A stretch of DNA of 31,198 bases from a virus: positions 1 to 31,198 of the IMG/VR virus record IMGVR_UViG_3300024518_002925; one strand, written 5' to 3'. Under the pieces are notes generated by a model. It ran no database searches. It was given only the letters and a program-made list of their open reading frames with translations, and was not told the origin of the DNA. Below are positions 15,359-29,838 of the stretch, piece after piece. The translations under genes were made by a program, and so were the position numbers. The first letter of the stretch is position 1. Every line of letters starts with the position of its first letter.

Positions 15359-15387
15359 TTGCTTATCCCGAACACTTGTGCTATAAT
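15359..15387 (+). promoter_or_regulatory. Plus-strand promoter of the HNH cassette
   Basis: TTGCTT (15359-15364), 17 bases, TATAAT (15382-15387), followed by ATCAG. The -10 neighbourhood TATAATATC is shared with the promoters of the minus-strand structured loci. It begins right next to the detached methylase end, as expected if the promoter is the left part of the inserted cassette. Confidence 0.65.
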
Positions 15388-15392
15388 ATCAG

Positions 15393-15531
15393 TGTCGAGG
15401 TAGCAAGTTCCCGTCAAGGCGGATTTTTTATTTAATCCAATATTTGCTATAATTAACTTGAACCCTCTAAAGGCTTTACGGGTAGCTGCCTCGACAACAG
15501 CGCCGCCGGGCCTGCGGAGGGTTTTTCTTTT
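15393..15531 (+). ncRNA. Structured leader RNA with interleaved helices and terminator, upstream of HNH gene
   Basis: H1: TGTCGAGGTAGC (15393-15404) pairs with GCTGCCTCGACA (15485-15496), 12 bp including one G-U. H2: AACCCTC...AGGC (15461-15474) pairs with GCCT...GAGGGTT (15510-15523), then TTTCTTTT to 15531. The strands interleave, so the helices form a pseudoknot or are alternatives, H2 being an intrinsic terminator. H1 starts 5 bases after the -10 box. Smaller elements: CCCGT/ACGGG just inside H1 and a GGATT/AATCC hairpin. Probably a conditional attenuator for the HNH gene. Confidence 0.6.
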
Positions 15532-15543
15532 GAGGGGTGCGAT

Positions 15544-16293
15544 ATGGGAAAACTTGAGTATTTTTGTGTCATCTGCCGTAACCGGGCCGATCTTAATGTT
15601 TGTAAAAGCTGTCAGGCCAAAAGCCGTCAACCATGCCCAGACTGCGGAACGCCAACCCCAACGATCACTAGAATGGGCAAAAAGCCTAAAAACCCCACTT
15701 GTGTGGCTTGCACAACTCGCAGGAAAGCACCCACAAGACGGATAGGTATAACTTGCCGGGTATGTAAATTGCGGTTCAAAAAGGTTGACAGAGTACAGCT
15801 TGTTTGCCCGACCTGCTATGGCGCAAAAGTTCAATGCCCTGTGTGCGAGTGTCACATGCCAAAATACAATAAAAAGGCAGGTGTGAGAAAATATTGTTCG
15901 TCCCGTTGTTTGAAGCTTGCCAACCCCACTTCTCCAGAACGATTCAAGCAAGGCCAAATGAAAAGATGGGCGGGCTATGTCCGCAAAACCCATCAAAATA
16001 CTCTCGCCAGAAGAACGGTCGAATATAAGCAGTGGCGGGCCGCAGTTTTTAAGCGTGATAACTACACTTGCCAGGATTGCGGCGACAAATTCTATAAGGG
16101 TTGTGGTAGACAAATAGAACTTCATCCGCATCATATCAAACCCTTTGCTGCCTATCCAGACCTGAGATACGATATTGACAATGGTATAACTCTTTGTAAA
16201 GACTGTCATCTCAAATGCCATAAACATATATTTATTGGGAGGACAAAACGCAAACCGGATCCCCGCCAGATGCGTCTGCCCATCTTTGAATAA
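15544..16293 (+). CDS. HNH endonuclease with multiple zinc-ribbon motifs
   Basis: A 249-residue protein, the only confident plus-strand gene in the window. The N-terminal two thirds hold several Cys pairs (CVIC, CKSC, CPDC, CVAC, CRVC, CPTC, CPVC, and a CSSRC), suggesting three or four zinc ribbons for DNA recognition. The C-terminal HNH domain starts at YTCQDCG and has the catalytic pair in LHPHHIKPF, then DNGITLCKDCHLKCH. A GAGGGG site precedes the ATG by 6 bases. Orientation, own promoter and leader, and its position across the 3' end of the methylase all mark it as a free-standing homing endonuclease inserted here. The last 62 bases overlap the methylase gene on the other strand. Confidence 0.9.
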   Translation: MGKLEYFCVICRNRADLNVCKSCQAKSRQPCPDCGTPTPTITRMGKKPKNPTCVACTTRRKAPTRRIGITCRVCKLRFKKVDRVQLVCPTCYGAKVQCPVCECHMPKYNKKAGVRKYCSSRCLKLANPTSPERFKQGQMKRWAGYVRKTHQNTLARRTVEYKQWRAAVFKRDNYTCQDCGDKFYKGCGRQIELHPHHIKPFAAYPDLRYDIDNGITLCKDCHLKCHKHIFIGRTKRKPDPRQMRLPIFE

Positions 16294-17584
16294 CAACTGC
16301 GATATACTCCGGCGACAATTCGCACCCTATCACCCGCCGCCCGTCGTCTAAATTCTCGGCGGCGATAACACTAATACCCGACCCCAGAAACGGATCAAAG
16401 ATAACGTCGTCGGGCTTGCCGTACTTCTCGAAACACCATTGCGGCAAGGCAACCGGCTTCTGGGTCGGATGGACGCGGCGTTGACCTTGTTCGGAGGCTT
16501 TTAACATTCCATTCCATCTATGCTCAAACTTGCGAACCGCCGTTCCCTGATTTGTCCAGGCCATCTCGCAATCGGCAAAGTTCCCGGTGTTATCTTTGTC
16601 CCAAATAATCCAGCAAGGCGACGGCTCCAAAACATCAGTATAGTAATTGCCGCCCCACCAAAAATGACAAGCGTCATAAAATACTCTCAAGGCTAAAGTT
16701 GCCGCCCGCCTTGCTGTTTCGGTTGTATCGTCTCCGATAACTTCGGCGTACTTTCCAACGTCTACTATGTTCGCGGTTCCGTCGGAACCGCGAACATCCG
16801 CGCTCCCAAAGGGTTTGGCTCCGCCTACGGAGCCAAACCCTTTGTTTTTTACGCCGCCGAAAGGAATGTCATAGGCTTCTCCGCCGCCAACGGATACGTT
16901 GGCGGCAACTATGTTTATTCCATAAGGGGGGTCAGCCCAAACCATGTTAACTGTTTCGCCATTCAATAATGCCTTTACCGCTTCCTCGTCTGTGCTGTCA
17001 ATGCAAGCTATAGTATGCCGGCCAAGTTGCCATGTGTCCCCGATTTTCACTTTCCAAATTTCTTGATACTGATCGGCTTCCGCTTTACTTGCCCCAACCT
17101 CCGTATCCTTCCCCTCGTCCCCGTTCCCCCCAGCGACCCCCGCCGCCTCCCGCGCCCGCTCCAGCATCGCCTCCAATCGTGGCCTATCCGCCACCAGCCC
17201 CCGCGTCCGCTCGGCAAGCTCGGCCAGTTTCGCGGTATCGACGACTGCGCCGACCGGGCTTGCATTATCAGTTTCCATGAGCAGCAAAGCCTCATCATAC
17301 GGTATCCCGGTATAATCCTTGACCTCGATGAACTCCCGCCCCGCTGCTGATGTCGCCATCCAGAAGCCGTGGCCGGCCAGGATGTAGCTAACGTCCGGGT
17401 GTAGGCTCTGCCCGTTGCCCAGGTCGATGATCTCGGCGGGCGACCAGACAACGATATTTTTGTACTGGTCGAATATGTCAAGTGAGCCTTGTAACCCCTT
17501 AACCTGACTTTCCGGGTGTTCATTGTAATTTTGCGGGTGCGGCGTTACGTCATTGATCCCGCGCAGTTCGCTTCTTACGCTCAT
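16232..17584 (-). CDS. ParB-like domain fused to N4-cytosine/N6-adenine DNA methyltransferase, altered C-terminus
   Basis: A 450-residue protein. Residues 1-110 resemble the ParB/sulfiredoxin-type domain found on phage methylases (HPQNYNEHPESQVKGL, VSYILAGHGFW). The methylase domain has WADPPYGI (DPPY at 218-221) and later FDPFLGSG (SAM-binding, 397-403), the order of beta-class enzymes that methylate adenine N6 or cytosine N4. Between them is a Gly-rich stretch (about 228-275) whose DNA holds three perfect inverted repeats. The last about 18 residues (RWADASGGDPVCVLSSQ) are encoded by sequence belonging to the inverted HNH cassette, while a better family C-terminus survives at 15292-15357. 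Starts in an ATGA overlap. Probably protects phage DNA or regulates. Confidence 0.88.
   Translation of the reverse strand: MSVRSELRGINDVTPHPQNYNEHPESQVKGLQGSLDIFDQYKNIVVWSPAEIIDLGNGQSLHPDVSYILAGHGFWMATSAAGREFIEVKDYTGIPYDEALLLMETDNASPVGAVVDTAKLAELAERTRGLVADRPRLEAMLERAREAAGVAGGNGDEGKDTEVGASKAEADQYQEIWKVKIGDTWQLGRHTIACIDSTDEEAVKALLNGETVNMVWADPPYGINIVAANVSVGGGEAYDIPFGGVKNKGFGSVGGAKPFGSADVRGSDGTANIVDVGKYAEVIGDDTTETARRAATLALRVFYDACHFWWGGNYYTDVLEPSPCWIIWDKDNTGNFADCEMAWTNQGTAVRKFEHRWNGMLKASEQGQRRVHPTQKPVALPQWCFEKYGKPDDVIFDPFLGSGISVIAAENLDDGRRVIGCELSPEYIAVVIQRWADASGGDPVCVLSSQ
16767..16797. repeat. Inverted repeat, 14-bp perfect arms, inside the methylase gene
   Basis: ATGTTCGCGGTTCC (16767-16780), 3-base loop, GGAACCGCGAACAT (16784-16797). 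It encodes the DVRGSDGTANI part of the Gly-rich insert of the methylase. First of three perfect inverted repeats within 140 bases. Confidence 0.9.
16807..16850 (+). terminator. 17-bp perfect hairpin plus T6, intrinsic terminator on the plus strand
   Basis: CAAAGGGTTTGGCTCCG (16807-16823), 4-base loop, and its perfect complement (16828-16844) followed by TTTTTT (16845-16850). On the plus strand this is a textbook rho-independent terminator, 510 bases after the HNH stop and inside the antisense strand of the methylase gene. It could end the HNH transcript before it runs far against the methylase operon. On the minus strand it encodes NKGFGSVGGAKPFG. Confidence 0.75.
16883..16906. repeat. Inverted repeat, 10-bp perfect arms, inside the methylase gene
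   Basis: GCCGCCAACG (16883-16892), 4-base loop GATA, CGTTGGCGGC (16897-16906). Encodes the AANVSVGG part of the methylase just after DPPY. Confidence 0.85.
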
Positions 17585-17805
17585 TTAGCCTCTATCGCTC
17601 TCTCAGATCGTTTCTGGTGGCGCTTCGTCAGGTATTGCCCTCGAATTCCGCCTGTATCGCTCTCCGGCCATCTCTGAGGCGGCACCGTTGACGATCCAGG
17701 CTCACACCATCTATGAAATCTCCGGGTACTCGACAACGGCGTCACCGTCGATGTTCCCGGCTCAACCGGCCGGGCCATGTCTCCGGTGCGCTGCGGCTCA
17801 GTCAT
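17581..17805 (-). CDS. Hypothetical protein with internal repeat
   Basis: A 74-residue protein starting MTEPQRTGDMARPVEPG; the ATG at 17805 overlaps the upstream stop by 8 bases and the stop overlaps the methylase start by ATGA. It contains two similar units, EPGTSTVTPLSS and EPGSSTVPPQRW, each followed by an Arg/Trp-containing stretch, and is Pro/Ser/Thr/Arg-rich. Probably a small coupled protein of unknown function; low complexity makes it less certain. Confidence 0.45.
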   Translation of the reverse strand: MTEPQRTGDMARPVEPGTSTVTPLSSTRRFHRWCEPGSSTVPPQRWPESDTGGIRGQYLTKRHQKRSERAIEAK

Positions 17806-18166
17806 CGGCGGCCACCGGATTGAACAACATCGCAAGAAGCAGTTGGGCCTCCTCGCTCATCTCGAAATCAACGCCTGCTTCGTCCAGGCTTTCCACGCGG
17901 GCCCAAATCGCATCTCTCAGTGAGTCGGTGCCTTGCAACTCAGCCGCCAGCCGCTCAAGCTGGCCCACCTCGACCCCGTTGACGAAGATCGGCGGACCGA
18001 TGCGCTCCAGGCAGTCGGCGCAATGCTGCCACTCGACGCGCCCGCAGTTGCAGAGTTGGCGGGAGTGGTGCGGGCCGGCGCTGATCCAGACGTGGAAGCG
18101 ACCCCGGCAGAAGTAGACGCGAGTGCGCAGGGCGGTGTGGGCGTCGGTGGTCATTGTATCGGTCAT
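17798..18166 (-). CDS. Hypothetical protein with SWIM-like Cys/His pattern
   Basis: A 122-residue protein. Residues 17-52 read VYFCRGRFHVWISAGP, CNCGRVEWQHCADC, with a CNCG...C..C arrangement that could bind zinc. The remainder is an acidic helical region (VGQLERLAAELQG, MSEEAQLLLAMLF). Start and stop are coupled to neighbours by short overlaps. No firm family; the metal-binding idea is from Cys spacing only. Confidence 0.55.
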   Translation of the reverse strand: MTDTMTTDAHTALRTRVYFCRGRFHVWISAGPHHSRQLCNCGRVEWQHCADCLERIGPPIFVNGVEVGQLERLAAELQGTDSLRDAIWARVESLDEAGVDFEMSEEAQLLLAMLFNPVAADD

Positions 18167-18351
18167 GGCTTCTCCAGTAGTGACAACTGCCTCGGCCCCG
18201 GCGGTTTGCCGTTGCGCTGCGCCTTGGTGGGCGGCGCGTAAGGCTGGGCGGTGTGGGTTGCAATGCGGTGCAATCGCCTTGCAAAACCTGGCTTTCTGTC
18301 ATTTGCTCTTATCCCGCTGTAATATTGTTGTCCAGTAGTAATCTGTCCCAA
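18163..18351 (-). CDS. Hypothetical small protein, start uncertain
   Basis: Open frame of up to 62 residues ending ...PPGPRQLSLLEKP with the stop in an ATGA overlap with the next start. The C-terminal QLSLLE ending is one I associate with small phage proteins. The 5' part overlaps the end of the AT-rich gene upstream by 53 bases, so the true start is unclear, and a competing frame begins at 18302. Low confidence. Confidence 0.35.
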   Translation of the reverse strand: MGQITTGQQYYSGIRANDRKPGFARRLHRIATHTAQPYAPPTKAQRNGKPPGPRQLSLLEKP

Positions 18352-18898
18352 TCGTAATAATCCACCAGCAGATATGTAGGTCTATATAGCGCCGTTGAAA
18401 ATCAATGTGAAAACCCAATGAAAACCAAGGTCCTTTTATAGTGCTATATGAGATGGGCACAATCTTCGTATTGATTATCTTTCTTTCCTCCACTCCATTT
18501 GCCATGCGTAAGTCTCCATCTGGATTGCCTTCCTCCCAAGTAAAGGCCCCGCATTGACAACGCATTAACGGATGTGGTTCTTCATTATTTGCATCTGTAT
18601 AATCAGCACTGCCTCCAGTGTCATCCCACAACCAGGCGTGTAGTCCGTTTTTGCAAAGTGTGTCATACTCATTAGAAATGATAAGTTGGTTATCCTTAAC
18701 ATGTCTAACTATATCGGTCAAGAAACACCAAACACATAAATATTCTTTGTCAATTTCCGGGCCGCCACGACGAATAACAGTATTCCAAACTTCATTTGAG
18801 ATGCTGAATTCGACAACTTCTCCCCCGCACCGATTACAAGGAAGTTCGCTAACCTCATCTGCTACAAAATATAATGCTTCATTTGTCTTAACCATCAT
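18299..18898 (-). CDS. Hypothetical protein in an AT-rich island
   Basis: A 199-residue protein starting at 18898 (MMVKTNEALYFVADEV), where ATG overlaps the upstream stop. Residues 17-60 include LPCNRCGGEVVEF and LCVWCFLTDIV, a zinc-ribbon-like four-Cys set; RCQCGAFTWEEGNP follows. The C-terminus is hydrophobic and Trp-rich (IDLHICWWIITIGTDYYW). The region 18350-18890 is visibly richer in A/T than its neighbours, suggesting later acquisition. No family recognised. Confidence 0.55.
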   Translation of the reverse strand: MMVKTNEALYFVADEVSELPCNRCGGEVVEFSISNEVWNTVIRRGGPEIDKEYLCVWCFLTDIVRHVKDNQLIISNEYDTLCKNGLHAWLWDDTGGSADYTDANNEEPHPLMRCQCGAFTWEEGNPDGDLRMANGVEERKIINTKIVPISYSTIKGPWFSLGFHIDFQRRYIDLHICWWIITIGTDYYWTTILQRDKSK

Positions 18899-19548
18899 TC
18901 GCACATCTCCGCTGTATTCCTCGGCTCCCCCCGCCCGAACTCGACAACTTGCCTCTGCCCGGCTCGGCACCTGCCCTCGTCAAACGTGCCTATCCAGACC
19001 CAGCCCGGCCCAACCAGCGGATGATTGACCTCTATCCACATTTCAGCCGGTTCCGGCTTCATATCGTAAAAAATGCCGGTAATGCGGGCATGTTCGCCGC
19101 TCAGGTAGCGTCCAATTCGCGGGCACTCTTCGTTATCCACCTTCGCACACTTCCGCACCCTGACCGCCTCGGTGAACCAGGCTCCGAAATAAGCCACGGT
19201 CGGCCGGGGCGTTGGCGAAAAGGTGGGCGACGGCGACACCGTTGACGGCGTTGCCGTCGGGGAGGAAATTAAGGGAGGTGGTGTCGCCGTCGCTAAGGAG
19301 GATGGACTTGCAGCCGGCGTCGGTGTTGGCGTCTGCGTTGCCGTTGCCGTATCCGCTACCACAACGGGCGGCGTGGGCGTGGTCGTCGGCTGCAAGGGGA
19401 GGGGCGTTTGGGTTGGCGTGACGATCTCGACGGTGGGCAGGGGCGGCGGGGCGGGTCGGTCGCGTTGCAAGATGCAGCCGGCGGCAATCAATAGGATTAG
19501 AACGGTTAAGGCGAGGCGAGCGAAGTAGTCACTTGGTTTCGTTTTCAT
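18895..19548 (-). CDS. Lipoprotein with Thr/Pro-rich linker and SH3-like domain
   Basis: A 217-residue secreted protein starting MKTKPSDYFARLAL, with a membrane signal and lipobox ending LIAAGC, a long Thr/Pro/Ala linker (about residues 35-118, repeated TPTPTP), and a C-terminal domain of about 95 residues (VRVRKCAKVDNEECPRIGRY, EMWIEVNHPLVGPGWVWIG) typical of bacterial SH3 domains, with Cys residues that may form disulfides. It is translated after the membrane coiled-coil protein and holin, so it could be a moron that alters the lysogen surface, or part of lysis. Such linkers are common in Chloroflexota proteins, a weak hint at the host. Confidence 0.7.
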   Translation of the reverse strand: MKTKPSDYFARLALTVLILLIAAGCILQRDRPAPPPLPTVEIVTPTQTPLPLQPTTTPTPPVVVADTATATQTPTPTPAASPSSLATATPPPLISSPTATPSTVSPSPTFSPTPRPTVAYFGAWFTEAVRVRKCAKVDNEECPRIGRYLSGEHARITGIFYDMKPEPAEMWIEVNHPLVGPGWVWIGTFDEGRCRAGQRQVVEFGRGEPRNTAEMCE

Positions 19549-19729
19549 TAGCCTCACCGTTTAGCGGAAGCCATTTCACGTAAAGCGTGATAAGCCACAG
19601 TCCCCCACGTTTCCACCAGACAACATTGCCCGCTTCGAGTCGCTTGATTCGGCAATGTGCCCAGGCGTGAAAGCGACCATGAAGGTGGATGATAACGGCT
19701 AGGCGGTCGGCAATCCATCGGTTTTTCAT
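19529..19729 (-). CDS. Hypothetical small basic protein
   Basis: A 66-residue Trp/His/Arg-rich protein (MKNRWIADRLAVIIHLHGRF, NVVWWKRGGLWLITLYVKWL). The start overlaps the previous stop by ATGA; the stop is 20 bases inside the next gene. The second half is hydrophobic enough to touch a membrane. No family recognised. Confidence 0.5.
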   Translation of the reverse strand: MKNRWIADRLAVIIHLHGRFHAWAHCRIKRLEAGNVVWWKRGGLWLITLYVKWLPLNGEANENETK

Positions 19730-20178
19730 CGCTCACCGCCCGCCGCTTTCTTAACTTTGGCCTCCGACAGCTTTCTCATAAGCCGCTCTGACATCTTCCG
19801 AAGTTCTCGGATGGTCATTTCGGCAAAGCCTTCTATCGTGACCGGTGGGTCAATGTCTGCAAGTTGCATAAACGTGGTATTAATTAAGAAGGCAAGCTGG
19901 TATTTCATGCCCTCGGCGGTCAGGTCTTCAACTGAGTTCTTGGTATCCTCTAGCTCCTGGCGAAGTTCTGCGATCTCTTGCCGGTCTTTTTCCCGGTCGG
20001 CGCGTAGCTTTACCACGTCTTTTTCTAGTCTCTCAACGAGGGTCAGCGCTGTCTGTGTTAGCTGACCGGTAGCAGAGGCATCAGTTTTTCGTCTATTAAA
20101 CCATGCTGTCCCCCAGGCCCCTAAGACACCGGAACCAAGGACGGCGACTATAACCGTGACTATCTGCTCGGTTTCCAT
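19726..20178 (-). CDS. Membrane-anchored coiled-coil protein, possible lysis accessory
   Basis: A 150-residue protein with an N-terminal membrane segment (IVTVIVAVLGSGVLGAWGTAWF, written here in part: residues 5-26) followed by a long charged coiled coil (about 45-90, RLEKDVVKLRADREKDRQEI) and a helical basic C-terminus. N-terminal anchor plus coiled coil, directly after a holin, is the layout of inner-membrane spanin (Rz-like) subunits, but no overlapping Rz1-type lipoprotein is evident; the lipoprotein two genes on might serve. Many phages carry similar proteins of unknown role. Confidence 0.55.
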   Translation of the reverse strand: METEQIVTVIVAVLGSGVLGAWGTAWFNRRKTDASATGQLTQTALTLVERLEKDVVKLRADREKDRQEIAELRQELEDTKNSVEDLTAEGMKYQLAFLINTTFMQLADIDPPVTIEGFAEMTIRELRKMSERLMRKLSEAKVKKAAGGER

Positions 20179-20231
20179 TTGTCCCCCCTGGCCCCGTCAA
20201 TTACAATGTTAATAATGGTTGTCATCGGCAT
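20160..20231 (-). CDS. Possible 23-residue leader peptide
   Basis: MPMTTIINIVIDGARGDKWK and three more residues, with AGGAG 8 bases before the ATG, overlapping the start of the following membrane protein gene. A strong ribosome binding site and overlap suggest translational coupling, but the frame is too short to be sure. Confidence 0.3.
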   Translation of the reverse strand: MPMTTIINIVIDGARGDKWKPSR

Positions 20232-20265
20232 TTGACACGCTCCTTTGCCGGTGGCAGCAAGTCCT

Positions 20266-20293
20266 CGGCGGCGGTCTTGGTAGTCAGCCGCCG
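20266..20293. other. Hairpin between holin and next gene
   Basis: CGGCGGC (20266-20272) and GCCGCCG (20287-20293) are complementary with a 14-base loop. No T-tract follows, so it is not an obvious terminator; it may stabilise or process the mRNA in this 75-base gap. Confidence 0.5.
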
Positions 20294-20306
20294 GGGGCGC
20301 TTGGTT

Positions 20307-20582
20307 TTACTCAGCCTTTGCGGTCGGGTGCTGCTCCGCAATCCAGGCGGCAAAATCGCCCGCCTTCGTGCCCTTGAGAGGCACGGCGGTTTTGACTCGC
20401 AGTAGCATCACAATAAGCCCGACCACCGAGCCAATCGGTCCGACCCAGGCGGCGACCTCCGGCGGCAGTTGCGTTATGTCGATAGCAGCGATGATCTGCT
20501 CCAAGATTACGAACACGCCGCCGATGGTCAGGGCTGCGCCGAATTGGATGGTGTTTGATTTGAGCAATGGTTTAGGTCTCAT
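20307..20582 (-). CDS. Putative holin
   Basis: A 91-residue protein, MRPKPLLKSNTIQFGAALTI, with two predicted membrane helices (about 15-33 and 48-66) separated by a short loop (TQLPPEVAAWVG) and a charged C-terminus. KPLLKSNTIQ followed by two helices is the pattern of a common class II phage holin, which forms the membrane lesion that times lysis. It is the first gene after a sigma70 promoter and terminator, with GGAGGAAAA before the ATG. No endolysin is seen beside it. Confidence 0.68.
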   Translation of the reverse strand: MRPKPLLKSNTIQFGAALTIGGVFVILEQIIAAIDITQLPPEVAAWVGPIGSVVGLIVMLLRVKTAVPLKGTKAGDFAAWIAEQHPTAKAE

Positions 20583-20594
20583 TTTTCCTCCAAC

Positions 20595-20632
20595 AAAAAA
20601 GACGCGCCGTAACCGTAGTTACCCTGCGCGTC
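20595..20632 (-). terminator. Intrinsic terminator between the promoter and the holin gene
   Basis: On the minus strand GACGCGC (20632-20626) pairs with GCGCGTC (20607-20601), with an inner GTAAC/GTTAC stem (20622-20618 with 20613-20609) and TTTTTT (20600-20595). It lies about 30 bases after the expected transcription start at about 20667 and just before the holin ribosome binding site. A terminator here would block the operon unless antitermination occurs. Confidence 0.85.
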
Positions 20633-20673
20633 GTGTGGTTTTCACCCTACGGAATATTTTATTATTTGAGATT

Positions 20674-20702
20674 ATTTTACCACGCCGTAAAGTTTACGTC
20701 AA
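20674..20702 (-). promoter_or_regulatory. Sigma70 promoter upstream of the holin gene (late-promoter candidate)
   Basis: TTGACG (20702-20697), 17-base spacer, TAAAAT (20679-20674). An inverted repeat TTTAC-GGCGTG-GTAAA in the spacer/-10 may be an operator. The 20-base segment at 20694-20713 is shared, with one change, with the portal promoter at 9568-9587. The promoter overlaps the last codons of the gene at 20694-20915 (KLT then TAA). Confidence 0.8.
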
Positions 20703-20915
20703 CTTGCGGCATTGTCCGAGCCGGTCTTTTTCCCGCTCGATGACCTCGGAAACTGAGACATTATGTTGTCTGAGCCAGCCCAAAGCGCGGGCCTCGTCTC
20801 GGTTCGGCGTCTTGGCCTCCATCCCCAGGATGATCTCAACATGACGCAGGGCGCCACGCAAGACATAGTACAACGCCAGAAATTGAGTTTTTAACATCCC
20901 GTCTATCTCACTCAT
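20694..20915 (-). CDS. Hypothetical protein
   Basis: A 73-residue helical protein, MSEIDGMLKTQFLALYYVLR, containing NRDEARALGWLRQHNVSVSE. Its start overlaps the upstream stop by 8 bases. Its final codons form the conserved -35 side of the late promoter. No family recognised. Confidence 0.5.
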   Translation of the reverse strand: MSEIDGMLKTQFLALYYVLRGALRHVEIILGMEAKTPNRDEARALGWLRQHNVSVSEVIEREKDRLGQCRKLT

Positions 20916-21195
20916 TTCGTTTCTCTCGCGTATTGCTATAAAACCCGCAGATAAAATCCCATAACTCCAGGGCGGTCTCCGGCCCGATTACAACCTCGTC
21001 AAAGTGCCCATATTTGCATTTGTAGCCGAAGATGTAGCGCAGCCCAGTGACCAGCCGCCGCCAGAAGCCCTGGGCGGCTAGGTGGGTGTAGATGTAGATA
21101 AATTGCTCTCCCGGTTCATCGGCATCGGGATCATAGCCGAATACCAATTGATGCTCAGGTGAGCCGCAGTCGCATAGTATCAATTCGTGTTTCAT
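20908..21195 (-). CDS. Conserved phage hypothetical protein (CDCxSPEHQ type)
   Basis: A 95-residue protein starting MKHELILCDCGSPEHQLVFG; an AGAGGAC site is just upstream of this ATG. The pattern LCDCGSPEHQ, then an aromatic strand region (EQFIYIYTHLAAQGFWRRL), then YIFGYKCKYGHFDEVVI, is one I know from many unannotated phage proteins; CDC and the later C/H residues may bind metal. Function unknown. Confidence 0.6.
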   Translation of the reverse strand: MKHELILCDCGSPEHQLVFGYDPDADEPGEQFIYIYTHLAAQGFWRRLVTGLRYIFGYKCKYGHFDEVVIGPETALELWDFICGFYSNTREKRNE

Positions 21196-21207
21196 AAGTC
21201 CTCTTTC

Positions 21208-21242
21208 GCCCCGGCTCCGGCGGGCTTTCTTGGAGCCGGGGC
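21208..21242. other. GC-rich leader hairpin, 11-bp perfect arms
   Basis: GCCCCGGCTCC (21208-21218) and GGAGCCGGGGC (21232-21242) pair perfectly around a 13-base loop, directly upstream of the ribosome binding site of the CDCxSPEHQ gene. No U-tract follows, so it is more likely an mRNA stabiliser or processing site than a terminator. Confidence 0.7.
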
Positions 21243-22989: not shown

Positions 22990-23002
22990 AATTTAATCCT
23001 CC

Positions 23003-24056: not shown

Positions 24057-24090
24057 ATGATTTTCTCCTGGCTGGCGAATAAAGCTCATG

Positions 24091-24717
24091 TTAGCCATCA
24101 GTTACCTCCGGCAACAGCACCCGCCCGAACCGCCCGAACTCCCGCTTGAATAGTTCCAAGTCCGGCCCGAAGTACCACAGCGCCGAGGCGGTCTTTGCTG
24201 AATTATCCTTATCCGACTGATATGCGGCGGGGCGGATATGTTCAATGCACTTATCTGTAATACAGACCGGCCAATCTCGCCACATTCCGCTAAACCACTC
24301 GTAACCAACGGCTGCGCGGGTTTCGGCCATAGCCCGCCTGATATTGCCTTTCAGGTGTTGACCCTCCAGATAACGCAGCCAAATTTCTTGACGGGAGCGA
24401 TTGCCAACCTTTCCATACGGCGGATTGAGCCAGACGTTGCCGTACCATTGCCACCGGAGACCGTTATCCTCGATGGTGTAAATTTTCCTGGCTCTCACCG
24501 TCTCGTTTGCCTCCTCCGTCGATGCCGGGTCGAGGTCGATGCCGCCAAGTACGCGGCGGGCGGTTTCGATGATCTCGGCCGGCGTGTACCACTCGTTGCT
24601 CTCCGAAGATAGCATGGCGTGGGTGGCCTGGTTGACCATGTTCAGGCGTGGTTCTCCGGCGTGCTTGGTGCGAACCGGGGGGCCGCCGAATAGCTGGCCT
24701 TGCAATGCGTCGGTCAT
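24091..24717 (-). CDS. Phage Dam-like N6-adenine DNA methyltransferase
   Basis: A 208-residue protein matching the phage N-6-adenine methyltransferase family: SNEWYTPAEIIETARRVLGG, IDLDPASTEEAN, the catalytic NVWLNPPYG (NPPY at about residues 98-101) and a C-terminal LWYFGPDLELFKREF. It methylates adenine in short sites, often to escape host restriction. It starts in an ATGA overlap with the membrane DnaD-like gene. With the beta-class enzyme at 16.2-17.6 kb the phage encodes two DNA methylases. Confidence 0.9.
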   Translation of the reverse strand: MTDALQGQLFGGPPVRTKHAGEPRLNMVNQATHAMLSSESNEWYTPAEIIETARRVLGGIDLDPASTEEANETVRARKIYTIEDNGLRWQWYGNVWLNPPYGKVGNRSRQEIWLRYLEGQHLKGNIRRAMAETRAAVGYEWFSGMWRDWPVCITDKCIEHIRPAAYQSDKDNSAKTASALWYFGPDLELFKREFGRFGRVLLPEVTDG

Positions 24718-25103
24718 CGAGACACCTCCCCCGCCGCCGGGCGGGCCGAATACACTAGCTCCAGCGCCCCCGGCTGCTCGATCTTCAGCGTCTCGGCGGC
24801 CTGGGTGATGGCATAGGTGAATACGTCCAGGGCGTTATGGCCGGCCTTGGAGAGATCAACCACGTCGGCGGAGATGGAATCGTATTCGATGCGACCAGGG
24901 AGCGGGGTGATGTTCTGGCGATACATCTCACAGATGACTAACTCCTGGTCAATGGAGTCTGTCGGGGCAGGTTCCGGCGCAGAAGCAGGGGGGGGAGGCT
25001 GGGCCAATCGTATCGTGATATATGATGCGGTAACGAATCCGGCAAGAGTCAAAACAGCCGCTACGAGAATGGTTACATAGATGCTCTCAAGATGTCGCCT
25101 CAT
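24714..25103 (-). CDS. Membrane-anchored paralogue of the initiator's DnaD-like domain
   Basis: A 129-residue protein. Residues 9-31 form a membrane helix (IYVTILVAAVLTLAGFVTAS), followed by a Pro-rich linker (PPPPASAPEPAPTDS). From residue 50 it aligns with the C-terminal part of the initiator at 26398-27333: DQELVICEMYRQNITPLPG versus AQELVILDMYRNNICPAPG, and AGHNALDVFTYAITQA versus AGHDALEVFTYAITQA. The linker DNA is also similar, so the gene arose by duplication of the initiator's 3' half next to a membrane segment. It may tether the replisome to the membrane or act as a competitor; this is inference. Confidence 0.65.
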   Translation of the reverse strand: MRRHLESIYVTILVAAVLTLAGFVTASYITIRLAQPPPPASAPEPAPTDSIDQELVICEMYRQNITPLPGRIEYDSISADVVDLSKAGHNALDVFTYAITQAAETLKIEQPGALELVYSARPAAGEVSR

Positions 25104-25459
25104 GAATTGCCTCTATCAGACTCGACATACTCGAACTCGATCCGCGTAACTATTGTCTGCGGCGCGACCTTCATTTCATTGCAGAAGAAATCAATAAATG
25201 TCCACTTCTCCATACCCGGAAACCCCTCGCGCTCTACATCGGCACGTGTGATCTTACAAAGCTGCTCCCTCCCCACGTCGGTGACTCTGATTTGTCCCAG
25301 CTTGACAATCTTTTCACCCTTTTTCAGCCCCTGGCACTTTTCGCAGCCGTTGAGGATGTCGCCTACCTTCAAAAACTCCCACCCAAGGCGACGGGTCACG
25401 GTTTTCGTCTGACGGAGGAATTGTTCGGTGGTCAGCATAAAGCTCATGTTTCTAGCCAT
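25100..25459 (-). CDS. ASCH-domain-like protein
   Basis: About 119 residues from MARNMSFMLTTEQFLRQTKT (25459) or four residues shorter from MSFML (25447). The sequence TVTRRLGWEFLKVGDIL, CEKCQGLKKGEKIVKLGQI, LCKITRADVEREGFPGM and a final TRIEFEYVE follows the small ASCH domains seen in phages, a fold related to PUA and thought to bind RNA or nucleotides. The start overlaps the upstream stop by 8 bases. The true function in phages is unknown. Confidence 0.65.
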   Translation of the reverse strand: MARNMSFMLTTEQFLRQTKTVTRRLGWEFLKVGDILNGCEKCQGLKKGEKIVKLGQIRVTDVGREQLCKITRADVEREGFPGMEKWTFIDFFCNEMKVAPQTIVTRIEFEYVESDRGNS

Positions 25460-26483
25460 CAGACCCCACCTCCCGCCGCTGCTCCGGGCGCTCGTCGGGC
25501 GCGGTATTGATAACCGTCGTGAACCAGCCCTCGCCCAGCCGTGAATTGATCGCCGGCAAACCAAGTCCCTGAATCGGCTCATTCCCGATTAACACGGTCA
25601 ACCCCGTCCGGTTCTTAGCAATCCGGTAGCGATCATTGAACCACTTATGCAGTAGGTGTAAGGTGTGTTCTGTAGCCCGGTTCTTGGCGTCGCTAAAATC
25701 AAACTCGTCAACGATCACAACCGGCGCGGTCGCAATCATCTTGTATCGCTGGTCGGTCGTTGGGCCTTCATTTGCCGGATCGTAGCTGGCCACGATAAAG
25801 CCGATAAGCTCAACCAGGTTGATATACATCGCCGGGCCTTTCCCGGCTTGGTTGATGCCGTTACATATCGCCTGCCCCGCTGTAGTTTTGCCGTTACCGT
25901 TTGGTCCCAAGAAATATACAATCCCGAAATCGTAAGGGTTAGCCATGACCTCGCGGGCCACTCTGAGCATTTCCCGGTTGCTGCGCTGGACTTTGATGGG
26001 GTTGCCGTCTTCGTCGCAGTTATAGTGAAGCTCTGCAAAGTTGAGAATATCGTGGCGTTCCTTGAGGTCGTCCAGGGTGACGGACAACTCGCTCTCATTC
26101 AAGTTCGAGAGGATGGATAGCTGCCGGAGTCGGTCAGGGTTGTGACACGGATCGGGGCAAGCGGTAGGCTTGCCGAAGCCGGGATCATCCGTCGAGGCGT
26201 CAGGGTTGGCCCGCAGCATCCCAGCGCCGCCGCACTGGGGGCAGCCGTCGCCGGGGCTGATGGGTCGGCGGGCCAAGGCGGTAGTGGTCGGCGCGGCGTA
26301 CTGAGCGTCGAGTTTGGCGCGGGCGGCCTCCATCTCTTCGGGCGTAAATCTGAGACGGGCCGGGGTGACACGGCGGGCCAGGTCGAAGGGGCCGGGGCTA
26401 ATAGGTGACTTGGCCGGCGAGGTTGACGGGTTGCGGTTGCCGTTTGGGGGTGCGCTGGGTTTTGCCGTTGGGTGAGTGTCCAT
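25452..26483 (-). CDS. DnaC-like helicase loader (AAA+ ATPase)
   Basis: A 343-residue protein starting MDTHPTAKPSAPP, with GGAGG 8 bases upstream; it begins 86 bases inside the initiator gene. Residues 1-80 are Pro-rich and flexible; a Cys pair CPQCGG (81-86), with further Cys at about 109 and 113, suggests a zinc-binding N-terminal domain as in many DnaC/DnaI-type loaders. The AAA+ core has Walker A GPNGNGKT (193-200), Walker B VVIVDEFD (255-262) and LIGNEP as sensor. It delivers the host replicative helicase to the origin together with the O-like initiator. Function by family and by position is well supported. Confidence 0.85.
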   Translation of the reverse strand: MDTHPTAKPSAPPNGNRNPSTSPAKSPISPGPFDLARRVTPARLRFTPEEMEAARAKLDAQYAAPTTTALARRPISPGDGCPQCGGAGMLRANPDASTDDPGFGKPTACPDPCHNPDRLRQLSILSNLNESELSVTLDDLKERHDILNFAELHYNCDEDGNPIKVQRSNREMLRVAREVMANPYDFGIVYFLGPNGNGKTTAGQAICNGINQAGKGPAMYINLVELIGFIVASYDPANEGPTTDQRYKMIATAPVVIVDEFDFSDAKNRATEHTLHLLHKWFNDRYRIAKNRTGLTVLIGNEPIQGLGLPAINSRLGEGWFTTVINTAPDERPEQRREVGSDG

Positions 26484-27333
26484 TTGTCGGGCCTCCGTTT
26501 CGTTTTGATTTCGCCTGGTACTTCTGGATATAAGCCGCCAGGGGCATGTTGCTATCTCTAACGTTCTTGACAATCGCTTGAATATACTTTAATCGGCGGG
26601 CGTTACTCATTACGGCCTGAGTTATCGCGTAGGTGAATACCTCCAAGGCGTCGTGTCCTGCCTGGGATAGATCGGTGATGTCTGAAACGATGTGATCTAT
26701 CTCGATGCTGCCGGGGGCTGGGCAGATGTTGTTACGGTACATGTCGAGGATGACTAACTCCTGGGCGATGGGGTCTATTGGGGCGGGTTTCGGCGCAGAA
26801 GCAGGGGCGGGAGGCTGGGGGCTTTGGCTATGCGCAGGGCGCGGGGTTGGGGCGGGGGAAGTTTCTTCTTTTTCTTTCTTTAAAGTTGTTTTAGTAGTTG
26901 TTTCTTTTGTGTTTACACTTTCTGTACTACGACGTTGTACACGTTTTGTACCAGGTCGCCGTACAGTTTTTGTACTGCTATGTAGTACACTTTCTGTACT
27001 ACGTGTAGTCAACACATCTATCTCATAATCCCGATTTAACCCATACGAGAACGCTATTGTCGGATCGCTGGCAACGTAGGTTAAAATCAGCCCCATGTTG
27101 TCGAGTGTTTCTAGTGCCTTTCTCACGGTGGTATTGCTACCTATCCCAGTCCCCTTTCTTATCTGGCTGAACGCTAACTCGTCCCGGTTTTTGTGCCAGC
27201 CCTTTGTCTTTCTAATTATGAACGATAGCACCTTCCAGGCGCTGCCGTTGAGCTTCGGCATAATTTCATCGAGAGCGATGTTGTTAAACTCTGTATATCC
27301 TCCCTGGTTTTCAAAGGGTTTATGCTTCGTCAT
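26398..27333 (-). CDS. O-like replication initiator with DnaD-like C-terminal domain
   Basis: A 311-residue protein. Residues 10-95 form a winged helix of the phage replication protein O type (TEFNNIALDEIMPKLNGSAW, IIRKTKGWHKNRDELAFSQI, TVRKALETLDNMGLI). Residues 111-142 are four 8-residue repeats (RSTESVLH, SSTKTVRR, PGTKRVQR, RSTESVNT) encoded by 24-bp DNA iterons. After a Pro-rich linker, residues 185-262 (VFTYAITQAVMSNARRLKYI, QAIVKN) resemble a DnaD C-terminal domain. As in lambda O, the initiator probably binds iterons inside its own gene and recruits the loader encoded next. The start shares one base with the HNH stop (TAATG). Confidence 0.85.
   Translation of the reverse strand: MTKHKPFENQGGYTEFNNIALDEIMPKLNGSAWKVLSFIIRKTKGWHKNRDELAFSQIRKGTGIGSNTTVRKALETLDNMGLILTYVASDPTIAFSYGLNRDYEIDVLTTRSTESVLHSSTKTVRRPGTKRVQRRSTESVNTKETTTKTTLKKEKEETSPAPTPRPAHSQSPQPPAPASAPKPAPIDPIAQELVILDMYRNNICPAPGSIEIDHIVSDITDLSQAGHDALEVFTYAITQAVMSNARRLKYIQAIVKNVRDSNMPLAAYIQKYQAKSKRNGGPTNGHSPNGKTQRTPKRQPQPVNLAGQVTY
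26915..27010. repeat. Four tandem 24-bp iterons; candidate replication origin
   Basis: Units at 26915, 26939, 26963 and 26987, each beginning ACA(C/G)TTT and containing TGTAC (ACACTTTCTGTACTACG in units 1 and 4). Around unit 4 is the palindrome GTAGTAC-ACTTTCT-GTACTAC. An A/T-rich stretch (26868-26914, runs of T on the plus strand) adjoins, as in lambdoid origins. They lie inside the initiator gene, so this is the likely ori. Confidence 0.8.
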
Positions 27334-27851
27334 TATTGGACCTCATCTATGTTGGCGGCGTACTCATCTTCGAGTACCCGGTTAATGAAACAATTGACCC
27401 GCTGCCGATCCGCCGGGCTTATAAGCATATAGGCATTAACTAGCCTATTCATCCCGGCGACTTCGGACAAGCGGGCGTAATACCCCGGATCGCTCTCTGA
27501 GCGGGGGTCAATGACCCGATGGACAATCGTCGCCGGGATCGCTTCATTTTGCCTATATTCGGGGTCAATAGGGGGAATGGCATAGCCTCGCTTGTATCCA
27601 GCCGGGTATGGCTCAGAAACCGCGCTTTCAGGATACATTGTGAGGATCATCCCGGCTTCTTCTGGCGTCCTGGCTCCCTTACGAGAATTGCAAGGACGGC
27701 AAGCCCAGGCCAGATTGTCAGGGTTGTGACTTCCGTCTTGAAACTGGGGTATAATGTGGTCGATGGTATCGGCATTGCCGCCGCAGTAGGCGCAGCGATG
27801 ATCCTCTCGTTTGACAACCTTAACGTCATCTGATACAATCTTATCAGTCAT
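27333..27851 (-). CDS. HNH endonuclease
   Basis: A 172-residue protein. The HNH domain sits near the N-terminus: REDHRCAYCGG, then TIDHIIPQFQDGSHNPDNLA with the His pair and Asn, then WACRPCNSRKGARTPEE completing the zinc-binding Cys set, an McrA-type order. The C-terminal 100 residues are helical and not recognised. It begins after an SD hairpin (27854-27868), with AGGAGG 6 bases before the ATG, and overlaps the upstream frame by ATGA. Its first codons carry DDVKVVK, a short stretch shared at DNA level with two other genes. Probably a homing endonuclease or packaging-associated nuclease; its distance from TerL favours homing. Confidence 0.85.
   Translation of the reverse strand: MTDKIVSDDVKVVKREDHRCAYCGGNADTIDHIIPQFQDGSHNPDNLAWACRPCNSRKGARTPEEAGMILTMYPESAVSEPYPAGYKRGYAIPPIDPEYRQNEAIPATIVHRVIDPRSESDPGYYARLSEVAGMNRLVNAYMLISPADRQRVNCFINRVLEDEYAANIDEVQ
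27811..27839 (+). promoter_or_regulatory. Plus-strand promoter facing the structured locus
   Basis: TTGACA (27811-27816), 17 bases, TACAAT (27834-27839). The sequence TTGACAACCTTAACGTCATC recurs at 28706 and, with one change, at 29506. It lies within the first codons of the HNH gene on the opposite strand. Expected start near 27846, giving RNA antisense to the HNH leader. Confidence 0.6.
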
Positions 27852-27913
27852 AGCGTACCTCCTGTACGTTGTGCTGTTGGCCCAAAGCGCCCGGTTCCCG
27901 CCGGACGTTTTTT
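27846..27913 (+). ncRNA. Candidate 68-nt antisense RNA over the HNH ribosome binding site
   Basis: From the promoter above, the plus strand contains hairpin I CGTAC-CTCCT-GTACG (27854-27868), whose loop is complementary to the Shine-Dalgarno of the HNH mRNA, then a terminator hairpin (27884-27911: AAAGCG.CCGG pairing with CCGG.CGTTTT, one mismatch) and T6 at 27908-27913. The layout matches the 29541-29612 copy. Confidence 0.5.
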
Positions 27914-28123
27914 GTTTGTGGCCTGGTTTATGAAATTGAAAAGCCCCGCCGAGCTAACTCCCATCTCTGACACGAAAAGGGCGTCGGTCGCTCCGCGAGG
28001 CTTAGTCCACAGTTTATAGGTTTGTTCCAATAACGCAAAAATGCGAGTTGCGCCGACTCGGTCAATCCTTTTCGTGTCACTAGATATTATACCCGAAATC
28101 GTGGGAAAGTCAAAATCACTCAT
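27848..28123 (-). CDS. Possible 91-residue protein overlapping the structured leader
   Basis: Frame MSDFDFPTISGIISSDTKRI to ...RTGGTL, exactly bridging the stop of the upstream gene (8-base overlap) and the HNH start (ATGA). It shares TISGIIS near the start and a VSxAxLFNxI pattern near the end with the frame at 29536-29838, so both may be real small proteins. However, the same DNA holds a promoter, long helices and an SD hairpin. Coding and RNA functions may coexist; which is primary is not decided by sequence alone. Confidence 0.4.
   Translation of the reverse strand: MSDFDFPTISGIISSDTKRIDRVGATRIFALLEQTYKLWTKPRGATDALFVSEMGVSSAGLFNFINQATNKKRPAGTGRFGPTAQRTGGTL
27939..28079 (-). ncRNA. Structured RNA with interleaved helices and terminator, upstream of HNH gene
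   Basis: H1: TGACACGAAAAGG (28079-28067) pairs perfectly with CCTTTTCGTGTCA (27980-27968), 13 bp. H2: AAGCCTCGCGGAGC (28003-27990) pairs with GCTCGGCGGGGCTT (27954-27941), 13 of 14 positions with one G-U, ending in TTTT. Strands interleave H1-H2-H1-H2. Joining segments are 63, 9 and 13 nt, close to the plus-strand copy (56, 10, 13). H1 starts 6 bases after TATAAT. Inside are a CGCA/TGCG hairpin and GTCGG/CCGAC. Probably a pseudoknotted attenuator. Confidence 0.55.
28086..28113 (-). promoter_or_regulatory. Sigma70-like promoter of the structured locus
   Basis: TTGACT (28113-28108), 16 bases, TATAAT (28091-28086). The segment CCACGATTTCGGGTATAATA is identical at 29798-29817. It lies in the first codons of the 27848-28123 frame. 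Confidence 0.65.
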
Positions 28124-28325
28124 CGGTTTCCGCCTCCGGCAGTTGATAGGCCGGATCGTTCAACTCGTCTAGCAACCTTGCTATCTCGTTTCGCATGGCA
28201 TCCTTGAACGCATGAAGCCTGATATACATCACGTCGAGGTCATTCACCTTATCGACGCAGAACGTCTCCGGTACCCCGTCGTCGTCGAGTTGTAGGTAAA
28301 TTCGGTCAGGGGGTTTAACTGTCAT
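28116..28325 (-). CDS. Hypothetical small protein
   Basis: A 69-residue acidic protein starting MTVKPPDRIYLQLDDDGVPE, with ARLLDELNDPAYQLPEAETD at the end. It starts 11 bases inside the end of the upstream gene. The C-terminal EAETDE and following junction resemble the end of the gene at 30901-31198. No family recognised. Confidence 0.5.
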   Translation of the reverse strand: MTVKPPDRIYLQLDDDGVPETFCVDKVNDLDVMYIRLHAFKDAMRNEIARLLDELNDPAYQLPEAETDE

Positions 28326-28776
28326 CAGTTTCAGCCTCCAGGTCGAGAGATGGGACTGTCTCGGATTCTTTGGGGTAGCCGTTTTCGTAGACCAGATTGA
28401 GAGCGGTAAGATATTCACGGGCCGCCTGCCATGCCTTTGACATGTATATAGTAAACGGCCAGCGAAGTCTCGCATCTTCAAAGAGGTCGCGCAATAGAGA
28501 TGTGGCCTCGCTGGCCTCCTCTTTAGGTACAAACACCAGCCGCCCCGGCGTCTCGGCCGACATCGTAGCGATGACAAAATGGCACCGCTTGCAAACGATG
28601 CTACCCCAGGCGTAAGGGTTCAGGTCGTCGGCCTTGAGCGGCTCGATCTCAACGGGTTGGTGAGTTCGGCACTGTTCGCAGTGGAAATGTACCCGGTCAA
28701 CTGTCTTGACAACCTTAACGTCATCCGCCGCGCAATGCGAACACGGCCCCGGATCATCCCAGTCACTACCGCCCAT
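28315..28776 (-). CDS. Zinc-ribbon protein, paralogue of the gene at the right edge
   Basis: A 153-residue protein starting MGGSDWDDPGPCSHC at 28776 (11 bases inside the upstream gene, GAGGGGG upstream). Cys pairs: CSHC (12-15), CEQC (about 33-36) and CKRC (about 62-65). DDVKVVK lies between the first two. A segment of 127 bases (28528-28654, ending in MSAETPGRLVFV) is identical to the right end of the window. The C-terminal half is helical. Function unknown. Confidence 0.55.
   Translation of the reverse strand: MGGSDWDDPGPCSHCAADDVKVVKTVDRVHFHCEQCRTHQPVEIEPLKADDLNPYAWGSIVCKRCHFVIATMSAETPGRLVFVPKEEASEATSLLRDLFEDARLRWPFTIYMSKAWQAAREYLTALNLVYENGYPKESETVPSLDLEAETDDS
28528..28654. repeat. 127-bp exact direct repeat, internal copy
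   Basis: Identical base for base to 31072-31198, with the base before it differing. It covers the CKRC and MSAETPGRLVFV part of the zinc-ribbon gene. Confidence 0.95.
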
Positions 28777-29050
28777 CGCCCACCCCCTCGGCCCCTGCAA
28801 CCAGCCTATAAAGCGCCTCAAGTTGCTCGACGGTCTGGACATTCTGGCACTGTATGCCGCAAACTTCCGTGAGTAAGAAGACGCGAAATGCCTGATGCTT
28901 CCATTCGCCAAATCTTACGGCCAGCCGCCGCTCAAATTGTTCCGTTGCCGTTACCGAATAACCTCTAAGCGGCTTCCAATATTCCATGATCGCGCCATTG
29001 TTCCAGTTAAATTCCTGGTATCCGGCTTCGAGTAGTTGTTCAGGAGTCAT
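28766..29050 (-). CDS. Hypothetical protein
   Basis: A 94-residue protein starting MTPEQLLEAGYQEFNWNNGA at 29050, 11 bases inside the previous gene. Aromatic-rich first half (IMEYWKPLRGYSVTATEQFE) then RLAVRFGEWKHQAFRVFLLT. Ends GAEGVGDGR, echoing the upstream gene's GAEGVDDDS: the junction DNA is repeated. No family recognised. Confidence 0.5.
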   Translation of the reverse strand: MTPEQLLEAGYQEFNWNNGAIMEYWKPLRGYSVTATEQFERRLAVRFGEWKHQAFRVFLLTEVCGIQCQNVQTVEQLEALYRLVAGAEGVGDGR

Positions 29051-29543
29051 CGTCCACCCCCTCGGCCCCTTCGAGTGCGTCGCGTAGGGCGCAGAGGTCG
29101 GCAAGGGGAACCTCTATAGTTCGCGGAGAATATATCGAACCGTCAAAGACAGCGACGGGAACCAGTAGCGGCACGGCGGGGGCTCGGATGGCCTTGAGCC
29201 ACTTAGCCAATCGCAACACCCGGCGTTGCAGCCGCTGGGCCCGCGTCTCTAGCGCCCGTTGCCCTGCCGTTGGGGTCGGGAGAGCAGAAGCCTCCTCCGC
29301 CAGCAAGTCCACCGCCCCCAGCCGCTGGGCGATGCGCTCGAAGCGGTCTTCGGCCGAGCCAATATCCCCGACATAAAGATCAGAGCTACCATGTCCAAAA
29401 ATCCTGATAACGACGCGGGCCAGACTTTCGCTATCATCAACAGTAATCGAGATACCCCATTGGAGATTTACAATTTTATTTCGTTTGATCCCAACGAAAA
29501 TCCACTTGACAACCTTAACATCCTCTGCTAAAATATCAGACAT
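29040..29543 (-). CDS. Hypothetical protein downstream of a structured leader
   Basis: A 167-residue protein, MSDILAEDVKVVKWIFVGIK. The first third is beta-rich (VNLQWGISITVDDSESLARV), the middle has a long Arg/Leu helix (ALETRAQRLQRRVLRLAKWL) and the end returns to strands (TIEVPLADLCALRDAL). AGGAGG lies 8 bases before the ATG inside the hairpin at 29548-29564. Shares the EDVKVVK N-terminal codons with the HNH and zinc-ribbon genes. No family recognised. Confidence 0.5.
   Translation of the reverse strand: MSDILAEDVKVVKWIFVGIKRNKIVNLQWGISITVDDSESLARVVIRIFGHGSSDLYVGDIGSAEDRFERIAQRLGAVDLLAEEASALPTPTAGQRALETRAQRLQRRVLRLAKWLKAIRAPAVPLLVPVAVFDGSIYSPRTIEVPLADLCALRDALEGAEGVDDDS
29506..29534 (+). 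promoter_or_regulatory. Plus-strand promoter facing the second structured locus
   Basis: TTGACA (29506-29511), 17 bases, TAAAAT (29529-29534), within the opening codons of the opposite-strand gene. Same -35 neighbourhood (TTGACAACCTTAAC) as at 27811. Expected start near 29541. Confidence 0.6.
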
Positions 29544-29838
29544 AGATCACACCTCCTGAGTGTGGTTTAGTTGGCTCGGAAATAACCTGTTGACCGCAGG
29601 TTATTTTTATTTGAGCCGAGCTTATGTGGTTAAATAAAAATGCCCCAGATACGTCGTTATCGGCTGAGATAAACGGTAGGCACTTAGGCCGCGCATCTGG
29701 GGCTATCTTTGCAGTATAATGGTCGCGTTGCACTTTTGCAACTGCGGGACTGGGCATTAAAAAAAGCGCCTGTGTTCCGTCTATCTCAGCTACAGATATT
29801 ATACCCGAAATCGTGGTAAAGTCAAAAGTTGCGGTCAT
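29536..29838 (-). CDS. Possible 100-residue protein overlapping the structured leader
   Basis: Frame MTATFDFTTISGIISVAEID to ...SGGVIYV. The ATG overlaps the RNA ligase stop by ATGA and the frame ends just inside the next gene, which favours coding. It shares FDFxTISGIIS and VSxAxLFNxI patterns with the 27848-28123 frame. The same sequence forms the long RNA helices, so protein, RNA or both may be the product. Confidence 0.4.
   Translation of the reverse strand: MTATFDFTTISGIISVAEIDGTQALFLMPSPAVAKVQRDHYTAKIAPDARPKCLPFISADNDVSGAFLFNHISSAQIKITCGQQVISEPTKPHSGGVIYV
29541..29612 (+). ncRNA. Candidate 72-nt antisense RNA over a ribosome binding site
   Basis: Hairpin I CACAC-CTCCTGA-GTGTG (29548-29564) presents CTCC against the sense Shine-Dalgarno; hairpin II AAATAACCTG (29580-29589) / CAGGTTATTT (29597-29606) is perfect and runs into TTATTT, an intrinsic terminator. 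Arm sequences of hairpin I differ from the 27854-27868 copy while pairing and loop are kept. Confidence 0.55.
29632..29790 (-). ncRNA. Structured RNA with interleaved helices and terminator
   Basis: H1: GCTGAGATAGACGG (29790-29777) pairs with CCGTTTATCTCAGC (29676-29663), 14 bp with one G-U. H2: GCCCCAGATGCG (29703-29692) pairs with CGTATCTGGGGC (29653-29642), 12 bp with one G-U, followed by ATTTTTATTT. Order H1-H2-H1-H2 as in the other copies; joining segments 73, 15 and 9 nt. H1 starts 7 bases after the -10 box. A perfect hairpin GTTGCA-AAAG-TGCAAC lies inside. The helix sequences are unrelated to the other copies, so the fold is what is kept. Confidence 0.6.
29798..29825 (-). promoter_or_regulatory. 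Sigma70-like promoter of the second structured locus
   Basis: TTGACT (29825-29820), 16 bases, TATAAT (29803-29798), nearly identical over about 35 bases to the promoter at 28086-28113. Expected start falls at the first base of helix H1. Confidence 0.65.

Follow-up and report, generated by a model that had tools for sequence, protein, structure and literature searches.

The window analysed here is the whole of the IMG/VR virus record IMGVR_UViG_3300024518_002925, which is 31198 bases long. Genes for a terminase, a prohead protease and a methyltransferase mark it as a fragment of a tailed phage, and its host probably belongs to the phylum Chloroflexota, because the terminase relatives from cellular genomes fall mostly there (Caldilineaceae, Herpetosiphon, Anaerolineae). 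At three loci of the window, here called copies A, B and C, a predicted promoter is followed by two long crossed helices (H1 and H2), a U-rich tail and a protein gene. In B and C the leader is also faced by a convergent antisense unit, contains a hairpin with the Shine-Dalgarno sequence in its loop, and is traversed by an open frame.

Predicted promoter-driven RNAs with two crossed helices

An initial annotation had placed three RNAs at these loci, each starting shortly after a TATAAT box and arranged in the order H1 5′, H2 5′, H1 3′, H2 3′. We reproduced the coordinates, this order, the distances from TATAAT to H1 (5, 6 and 7 nucleotides (nt)) and the joining lengths (56/10/13, 63/9/13 and 73/15/9). 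A near-identical sigma-70-type promoter stands immediately before the crossed helices in B and C (Table 1). H1 has 12 base pairs (bp) with one G-U in A, 13 perfect bp in B and 14 bp with one G-U in C, and H2 has 8 bp, a 2x2 internal loop and 4 further bp in A, 14 positions including one G-U and one G.G in B, and 12 bp with one G-U in C. H2 is a possible intrinsic terminator: its loops measure 35–38 nt, and U-rich tails follow it in all three copies, although the tract is weak in B, where the tail reads UUCAAUUU, or UUUUCAAUUU if the last H2 pairs are included. The helix sequences are largely unrelated between copies, as had been stated, except that the outer end of H2 is alike across them (RRCCYY...GGGGY/GAGGG).

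Table 1. Positions of the features at copies A, B and C in the window
Feature	Position	Strand	Description
Sense promoter A	15359..15387	+	TTGCTT-17-TATAAT; TATAATATC in common with B and C
Sense promoter B	28086..28113	-	TTGACT-16-TATAAT, 11/12; inside 34-nt repeat D7, 97% shared with C
Sense promoter C	29798..29825	-	TTGACT-16-TATAAT, 11/12
Sense RNA A (probable member)	15393..15523	+	H1 15393-15404/15485-15496; H2 15461-15474/15510-15523; U-rich tail
Sense RNA B	27941..28079	-	H1 28079-28067/27980-27968; H2 28003-27990/27954-27941; then UUCAAUUU
Sense RNA C	29642..29790	-	H1 29790-29777/29676-29663; H2 29703-29692/29653-29642; then AUUUUUAUUU
P2 of A	15410-15414/15478-15482	+	CCCGU/ACGGG, extendable
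P2 of B	28053..28057/27987-27983	-	5′ arm GUCGG, 3′ arm CCGAC just before H1 3′; p 0.08 for this copy alone
P2 of C	29764..29771/29685-29678	-	5′ arm AGGCGCUU, 3′ arm AAGUGCCU; p 0.005
Antisense promoter B	27811..27839	+	Opposite start of HNH gene; TTGACA-17-TACAAT, TG before -10, 11/12; repeat D3
Predicted antisense RNA asB	27846..27915	+	CUCCU-loop hairpin, terminator to 27911, T-run; fold z -3.7
Antisense promoter C	29506..29534	+	Opposite gene after C; TTGACA-17-TAAAAT, TG before -10, 11/12
Predicted antisense RNA asC	29541..29613	+	CUCCUGA-loop hairpin, terminator to 29606, T-run; fold z -4.35
Shine-Dalgarno hairpin B	27854..27868 (within few bases)	-	CGUAC-AGGAG-GUACG, before HNH gene
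Shine-Dalgarno hairpin C	29548..29564 (within few bases)	-	CACAC-UCAGGAG-GUGUG
HNH endonuclease gene after A	15544..16293	+	249 amino acids (aa), zinc-ribbon N-terminus; opposite strand to surrounding genes
HNH endonuclease gene after B	27333..27851	-	172 aa; PF14279 4.6e-12, PF01844 2.3e-11
Gene after C	29040..29543	-	167 aa; no family match
Open frame through promoter and RNA B	27848..28123	-	91 codons; coupled to both neighbours; chance-open p 0.13
Open frame through promoter and RNA C	29536..29838	-	100 codons; chance-open p 0.02

A scan of the whole window for pairs of crossed helices with a T-run behind them returned only C and B at thresholds of at least 24 for H1 and at least 20 for H2; relaxing H2 to 16 brought in A together with two weaker matches lacking a promoter. 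None of 400 Markov-shuffled windows contained a pair with both helices at 29 or more, so that the helices of B and C far exceed chance. In 894 kb of DNA with 1321 promoter-like sites, C (crossed-helix score 64) ranked first and B (61.5) second; the next site scored 50.5, and the maximum among 1225 promoters of shuffled windows was 54. The score of A (49) is equalled by ~0.7% of promoters in shuffled sequence; taken alone, A is weaker than B and C, and its main support comes from the correctly spaced TATAATATC box and from a third helix, P2. These results support B and C as one family of RNAs that have predicted promoters of their own and conserve a crossed-helix fold, and copy A probably belongs to it; the initial annotation had counted all three alike. 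The case is made by B and C, which are strong, by A, which is probable, and by internal statistics. To call this evidence covariation-like, as had been done, is an analogy: MAFFT did not align the 3′ helices of A, and the three unalignable copies have an architecture in common and no position-by-position covariation.

The crossed order and the spanning loops are, in each of the three copies, those of a predicted H-type pseudoknot. Loop 3 has 13, 13 and 9 nt in A, B and C, respectively, which is just sufficient by estimate and tight in C if P2 forms too. P2 lies inside H1 in all copies, 5–9 nt past the 5′ arm and 1–2 nt ahead of the 3′ arm (joint p over the three copies 0.00025, with positions defined after inspection). 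It would stack on H1, while the large loop would keep the 5′ arm of H2 unpaired and available for H2 to close the pseudoknot. Minimum free energy folding, which cannot draw pseudoknots, chose H1 and P2 in A and H2 in B and C. The 3′ arm of H1 and the arms of H2 share no strand in any of the three copies. The two helices can therefore form together, and the terminator/antiterminator switch that had been offered as an alternative to a pseudoknot was rejected on this ground.

The succession of promoter, structured leader, U-tract and gene in all three copies would also be expected of a riboswitch-like or protein-controlled attenuator, in which a ligand or phage protein on the H1/P2/H2 pseudoknot decides whether polymerase stops at H2, and the H1-P2 stack, the asymmetric joint and the pseudoknot have an aptamer-like architecture. 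Such an attenuator is nevertheless quite unlikely, given that no strand is contested between H1 and H2, that hardly anything in the unpaired core is conserved between copies and that Rfam 15 has no match at gathering in the whole window, loose searches reaching only far below that threshold. This lack of an Rfam match agrees with the earlier view that no described class fits.

In each copy H1 is also an inverted repeat of 12–14 bp around 80–100 bp, which could mark the two ends of a small mobile element and act as DNA, and modules have evidently been shuffled in the region (repeats D3, D7 and D8). This explanation is highly improbable: the arms differ wholly between copies, unlike those of one element family, H1 begins at the predicted transcription start every time, and a second, crossed helix would be unexpected. 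The wobbles in H1 and H2 (five G-U, one A.C) moreover fit the sense RNA strand, a weak indication because the scan itself favours G-U. A reading of A, B and C as transfer RNA (tRNA) or transfer-messenger RNA was rejected.

Predicted antisense units and ribosome-site hairpins

Convergent to the sense RNAs of B and C are two predicted antisense RNAs of ~70 nt, asB and asC, whose promoters lie within the first codons of the next gene. These promoters constitute another repeat (TTGACA-17-TAnAAT consensus, with 86% agreement over 29 nt) beside that of the sense promoters (34 nt, 97%), and both are kept whereas the RNA bodies of B and C have diverged. The distance from the start of the -10 box to the end of the terminator stem is exactly 77 nt in both antisense units. 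Pairs of a promoter (at least 11/12) and a terminator, expected at 0.005 per shuffled window, were seen opposite the leaders of B and C, plus one at 9553.

The CUCCU loop of the predicted antisense RNAs is an anti-Shine-Dalgarno sequence, and AGGAG occupies the loop of the sense-strand hairpins of B and C, whose stem sequences are unrelated (CGUAC/GUACG versus CACAC/GUGUG). Sense and antisense RNAs would end ~20–25 nt apart without overlap, with the antisense RNA spanning the leader of the downstream gene. With an opposing promoter, a terminator and complementarity to the Shine-Dalgarno sequence, asB and asC are candidate cis-encoded antisense RNAs over a ribosome site.

An own promoter, a terminator-like end, a 5′ end held in H1 and a length of ~140–165 nt in all copies would also suit free-standing, trans-acting small RNAs with a protein or RNA of the host or the phage as binding partner, in which case their position in front of genes would be incidental to a compact genome; the copies further share, in their alignment, a short single-stranded stretch before H2 (UAUAA..ACU). 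We regard this as unlikely. B and C are tied to the ribosome-site hairpin and the antisense unit of the next gene, and between the sense RNAs and the remaining phage sequence neither long complementarity nor trans targets rose above shuffles, which argues for a local role.

Overlapping frames, neighbouring genes and searches for relatives

The open frames through B and C are linked to both neighbouring genes by overlapping start and stop codons and have good Shine-Dalgarno sites, as ordinary small protein genes would (paralogues of 91 and 100 aa, with helices and promoter as by-products). Their amino-acid similarity extends past the part encoded by the promoter (score 40; maximum of 2000 shuffles 39), and part of it derives from nucleotide likeness around H2 and the ribosome site. 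That the frames are no more than such genes is quite improbable, since their codon log-odds are 0.027 and 0.051, compared with 0.12–0.38 in other genes, copy A has no such frame, and no homologue of either protein was found (no significant match to phage records for either, and no relative of the B protein in IMG/VR). Synonymous recoding with the amino acids of the overlapping frames fixed reached the observed helix score in 0 of 3000 trials for B and 0 of 3000 for C. In our reading, ribosomes may pass along these frames, which might also code for proteins.

The HNH gene after A sits between the terminase-side genes and the methyltransferase gene, and is likely an inserted module, for which copy A would serve as leader. 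An RNA ligase gene resembling T4 Rnl1 (phrog_562, 2e-68; PF09511) lies at 29835-30908 (minus strand), immediately upstream of copy C. At its beginning, the sense promoter repeat of B has a gene-start sequence like that of the RNA ligase gene (repeat D8, 29 nt, 90%), and the antisense promoter repeat makes up the start of the next gene. That shared gene-start sequences bound the cassette suggests its spread by recombination at these short stretches.

Homologues with compensatory changes, by which the initial annotation would have its family tested, did not emerge from the collections searched. A promoter 19-mer had no match in IMG/VR, a 16-mer had 24 chance matches without the fold in any, and the promoter with three mismatches allowed was absent from 400 Chloroflexota genomes. 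The conserved 20-mer of the antisense promoter had no match, nor did its 29-nt form in 16 records. No relative of the HNH protein after B was found in IMG/VR, where the RNA ligase gave two distant matches that led to no homologue. The leader was not present beside relatives of the HNH protein after A (41 loci) or beside Chloroflexota relatives of that after B, and was not seen in the scanned DNA of terminase relatives.

Several further structures were observed in the window. The phage with the Rnl1-like RNA ligase also has a candidate tRNA-like RNA: at 9733-9592 (minus strand), in an intergenic gap, a strongly folded RNA follows TATAATATT and has GCACCCCC...GGGGGUGC ends and a T-arm-like GCGAGTTCGAGTCTCGT, so that it looks like a diverged tRNA-like RNA. 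A tRNA match within it (9694-9602) is weak, at 15.7 bits under the cut-off, and ARAGORN reported no tRNA. The short RNA unit at 9553-9455 (minus strand) has the promoter TTGACG-17-TATAAT, a AACGCCCAGCGAG/CTTGCTGGGCGTT stem and TTTTTG; the only ctRNA-like Rfam match, a weak one to ctRNA_pGA1 (RF00236, E 0.21), is at 9522-9450, away from copies A–C. An exact 127-nt direct repeat (28528-28654 and 31072-31198), whose second copy reaches the contig edge, is probably an assembly branch point, its length being that of a common k-mer, and suggests that the segment 28655-31071 varies between strains. Another repeat, of 207 nt and 75% identity (24797-25003 and 26613-26819), represents a domain common to two nearby genes.

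A candidate cis-acting control cassette

The predicted antisense RNAs, ribosome-site hairpins and overlapping frames, all missed by the initial annotation, point to a composite cis-acting control cassette. We hold it about evenly balanced whether such a cassette is present in two diverged copies, B and C, each placed before a gene whose expression is kept low or conditional. Its anatomy and the conservation of both promoters and of the fold can be read from the sequence itself. The strong sense promoter would make an RNA with its 5′ end locked in H1 and a U-tract after the crossing H2, and most sense transcripts would end there as a stable pseudoknotted RNA of ~140–165 nt. On transcripts that read through H2, the ribosome site would be masked, and the antisense RNA could bind by a loop-loop contact between AGGAG and CUCCU, so that the downstream protein would be rare or made at a set time. 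When B and C are read from upstream promoters, ribosomes on the overlapping frame could melt H1 and H2 and carry polymerase through; relief might also follow if the antisense RNA were depleted. Copy A would be a simpler relative lacking the antisense part. The helix sequences may diverge while the fold stays so that copies in one genome do not cross-react.

Several observations weigh against this cassette. No antisense promoter-terminator pair was found opposite copy A, whose H2 is weak and interrupted, and the U-tract of B is poor. With no homologue in the collections searched, there is no true covariation. The gene after C has no family match, so that control of a nuclease would apply to A and B only, and the amino-acid similarity of the B and C frames just exceeds its shuffle maximum. 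The -35 and -10 boxes of the antisense promoters also encode conserved residues (DDVKVVK), which gives their conservation a second possible cause; coding accounts for some of it, since a third copy of the 29-nt repeat (28706-28734), which lies in a zinc-ribbon gene, has no -10 box.

By analogy, the cassette would work like the control of IS200 tnpA/art200 or of T-even mobE; we claim homology to neither. The IS200 tnpA leader masks the ribosome site. IS200 and the predicted cassette have in common a structured leader and an antisense RNA, in IS200 for a rarely expressed mobile DNA enzyme. There, the structured 5′ leader is itself a small stable RNA, and an antisense RNA pairs with the transcript (PMC12594629). 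The phage cassette differs in its crossed-helix leader with its own U-tract and in convergent sense and antisense RNAs that are each terminated separately, and no sequence relationship was shown. TnpA (Y1) transposase is not encoded downstream of any copy, the genes there being two HNH genes and one lacking a family match. HNH domains occur in the genes after A and B and not in that after C, and a homing role is putative. Gibb and Edgell reportedly described an antisense RNA to Aeh1 mobE in 2007. Throttling would fit the HNH genes after A and B, because T-even phages restrain HNH or GIY-YIG nuclease genes in their operons (I-TevI, segB, mobE) by ribosome-site-masking hairpins, weak internal terminators and start-stop overlap, as described in PMC2988022. 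The leaders in question are single hairpins, several of them on late promoters, and the passages of this review that were consulted include no two-helix pseudoknot duplicated before several genes (PMC2988022).

Two further kinds of system are comparable. The pT181 and pIP501 attenuators use short antisense RNAs (counter-transcribed RNAs) with a hairpin and a terminator opposite a leader; their leader arms compete for one strand, unlike H1 and H2. In the type I toxin-antitoxin pairs RalR/RalA and SymE/SymR, a DNA-cutting protein is held off by an antisense RNA, whereas in this phage toxicity or a persistence role would be conjecture, and the gene after C has no nuclease domain match.

More broadly, and with considerable doubt, we propose that B and C exemplify an undescribed Chloroflexota-phage cassette, combining a pseudoknotted, self-terminating sense RNA with a convergent antisense RNA to the ribosome site, which would have been copied to several genes and its helices diversified so that each copy regulates its own gene. 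To our knowledge, little RNA-level regulation has been described in viruses of the Chloroflexota phylum. If transcription confirms the cassette, it would be a small leader module that can be duplicated and whose control is layered, through termination, masking of the ribosome site and antisense pairing. Its two diverged copies in one genome would offer a naturally occurring test of the way in which antisense pairs acquire orthogonality, and they would illustrate that strong RNA signals can hide in frames which gene calling would annotate as small proteins.

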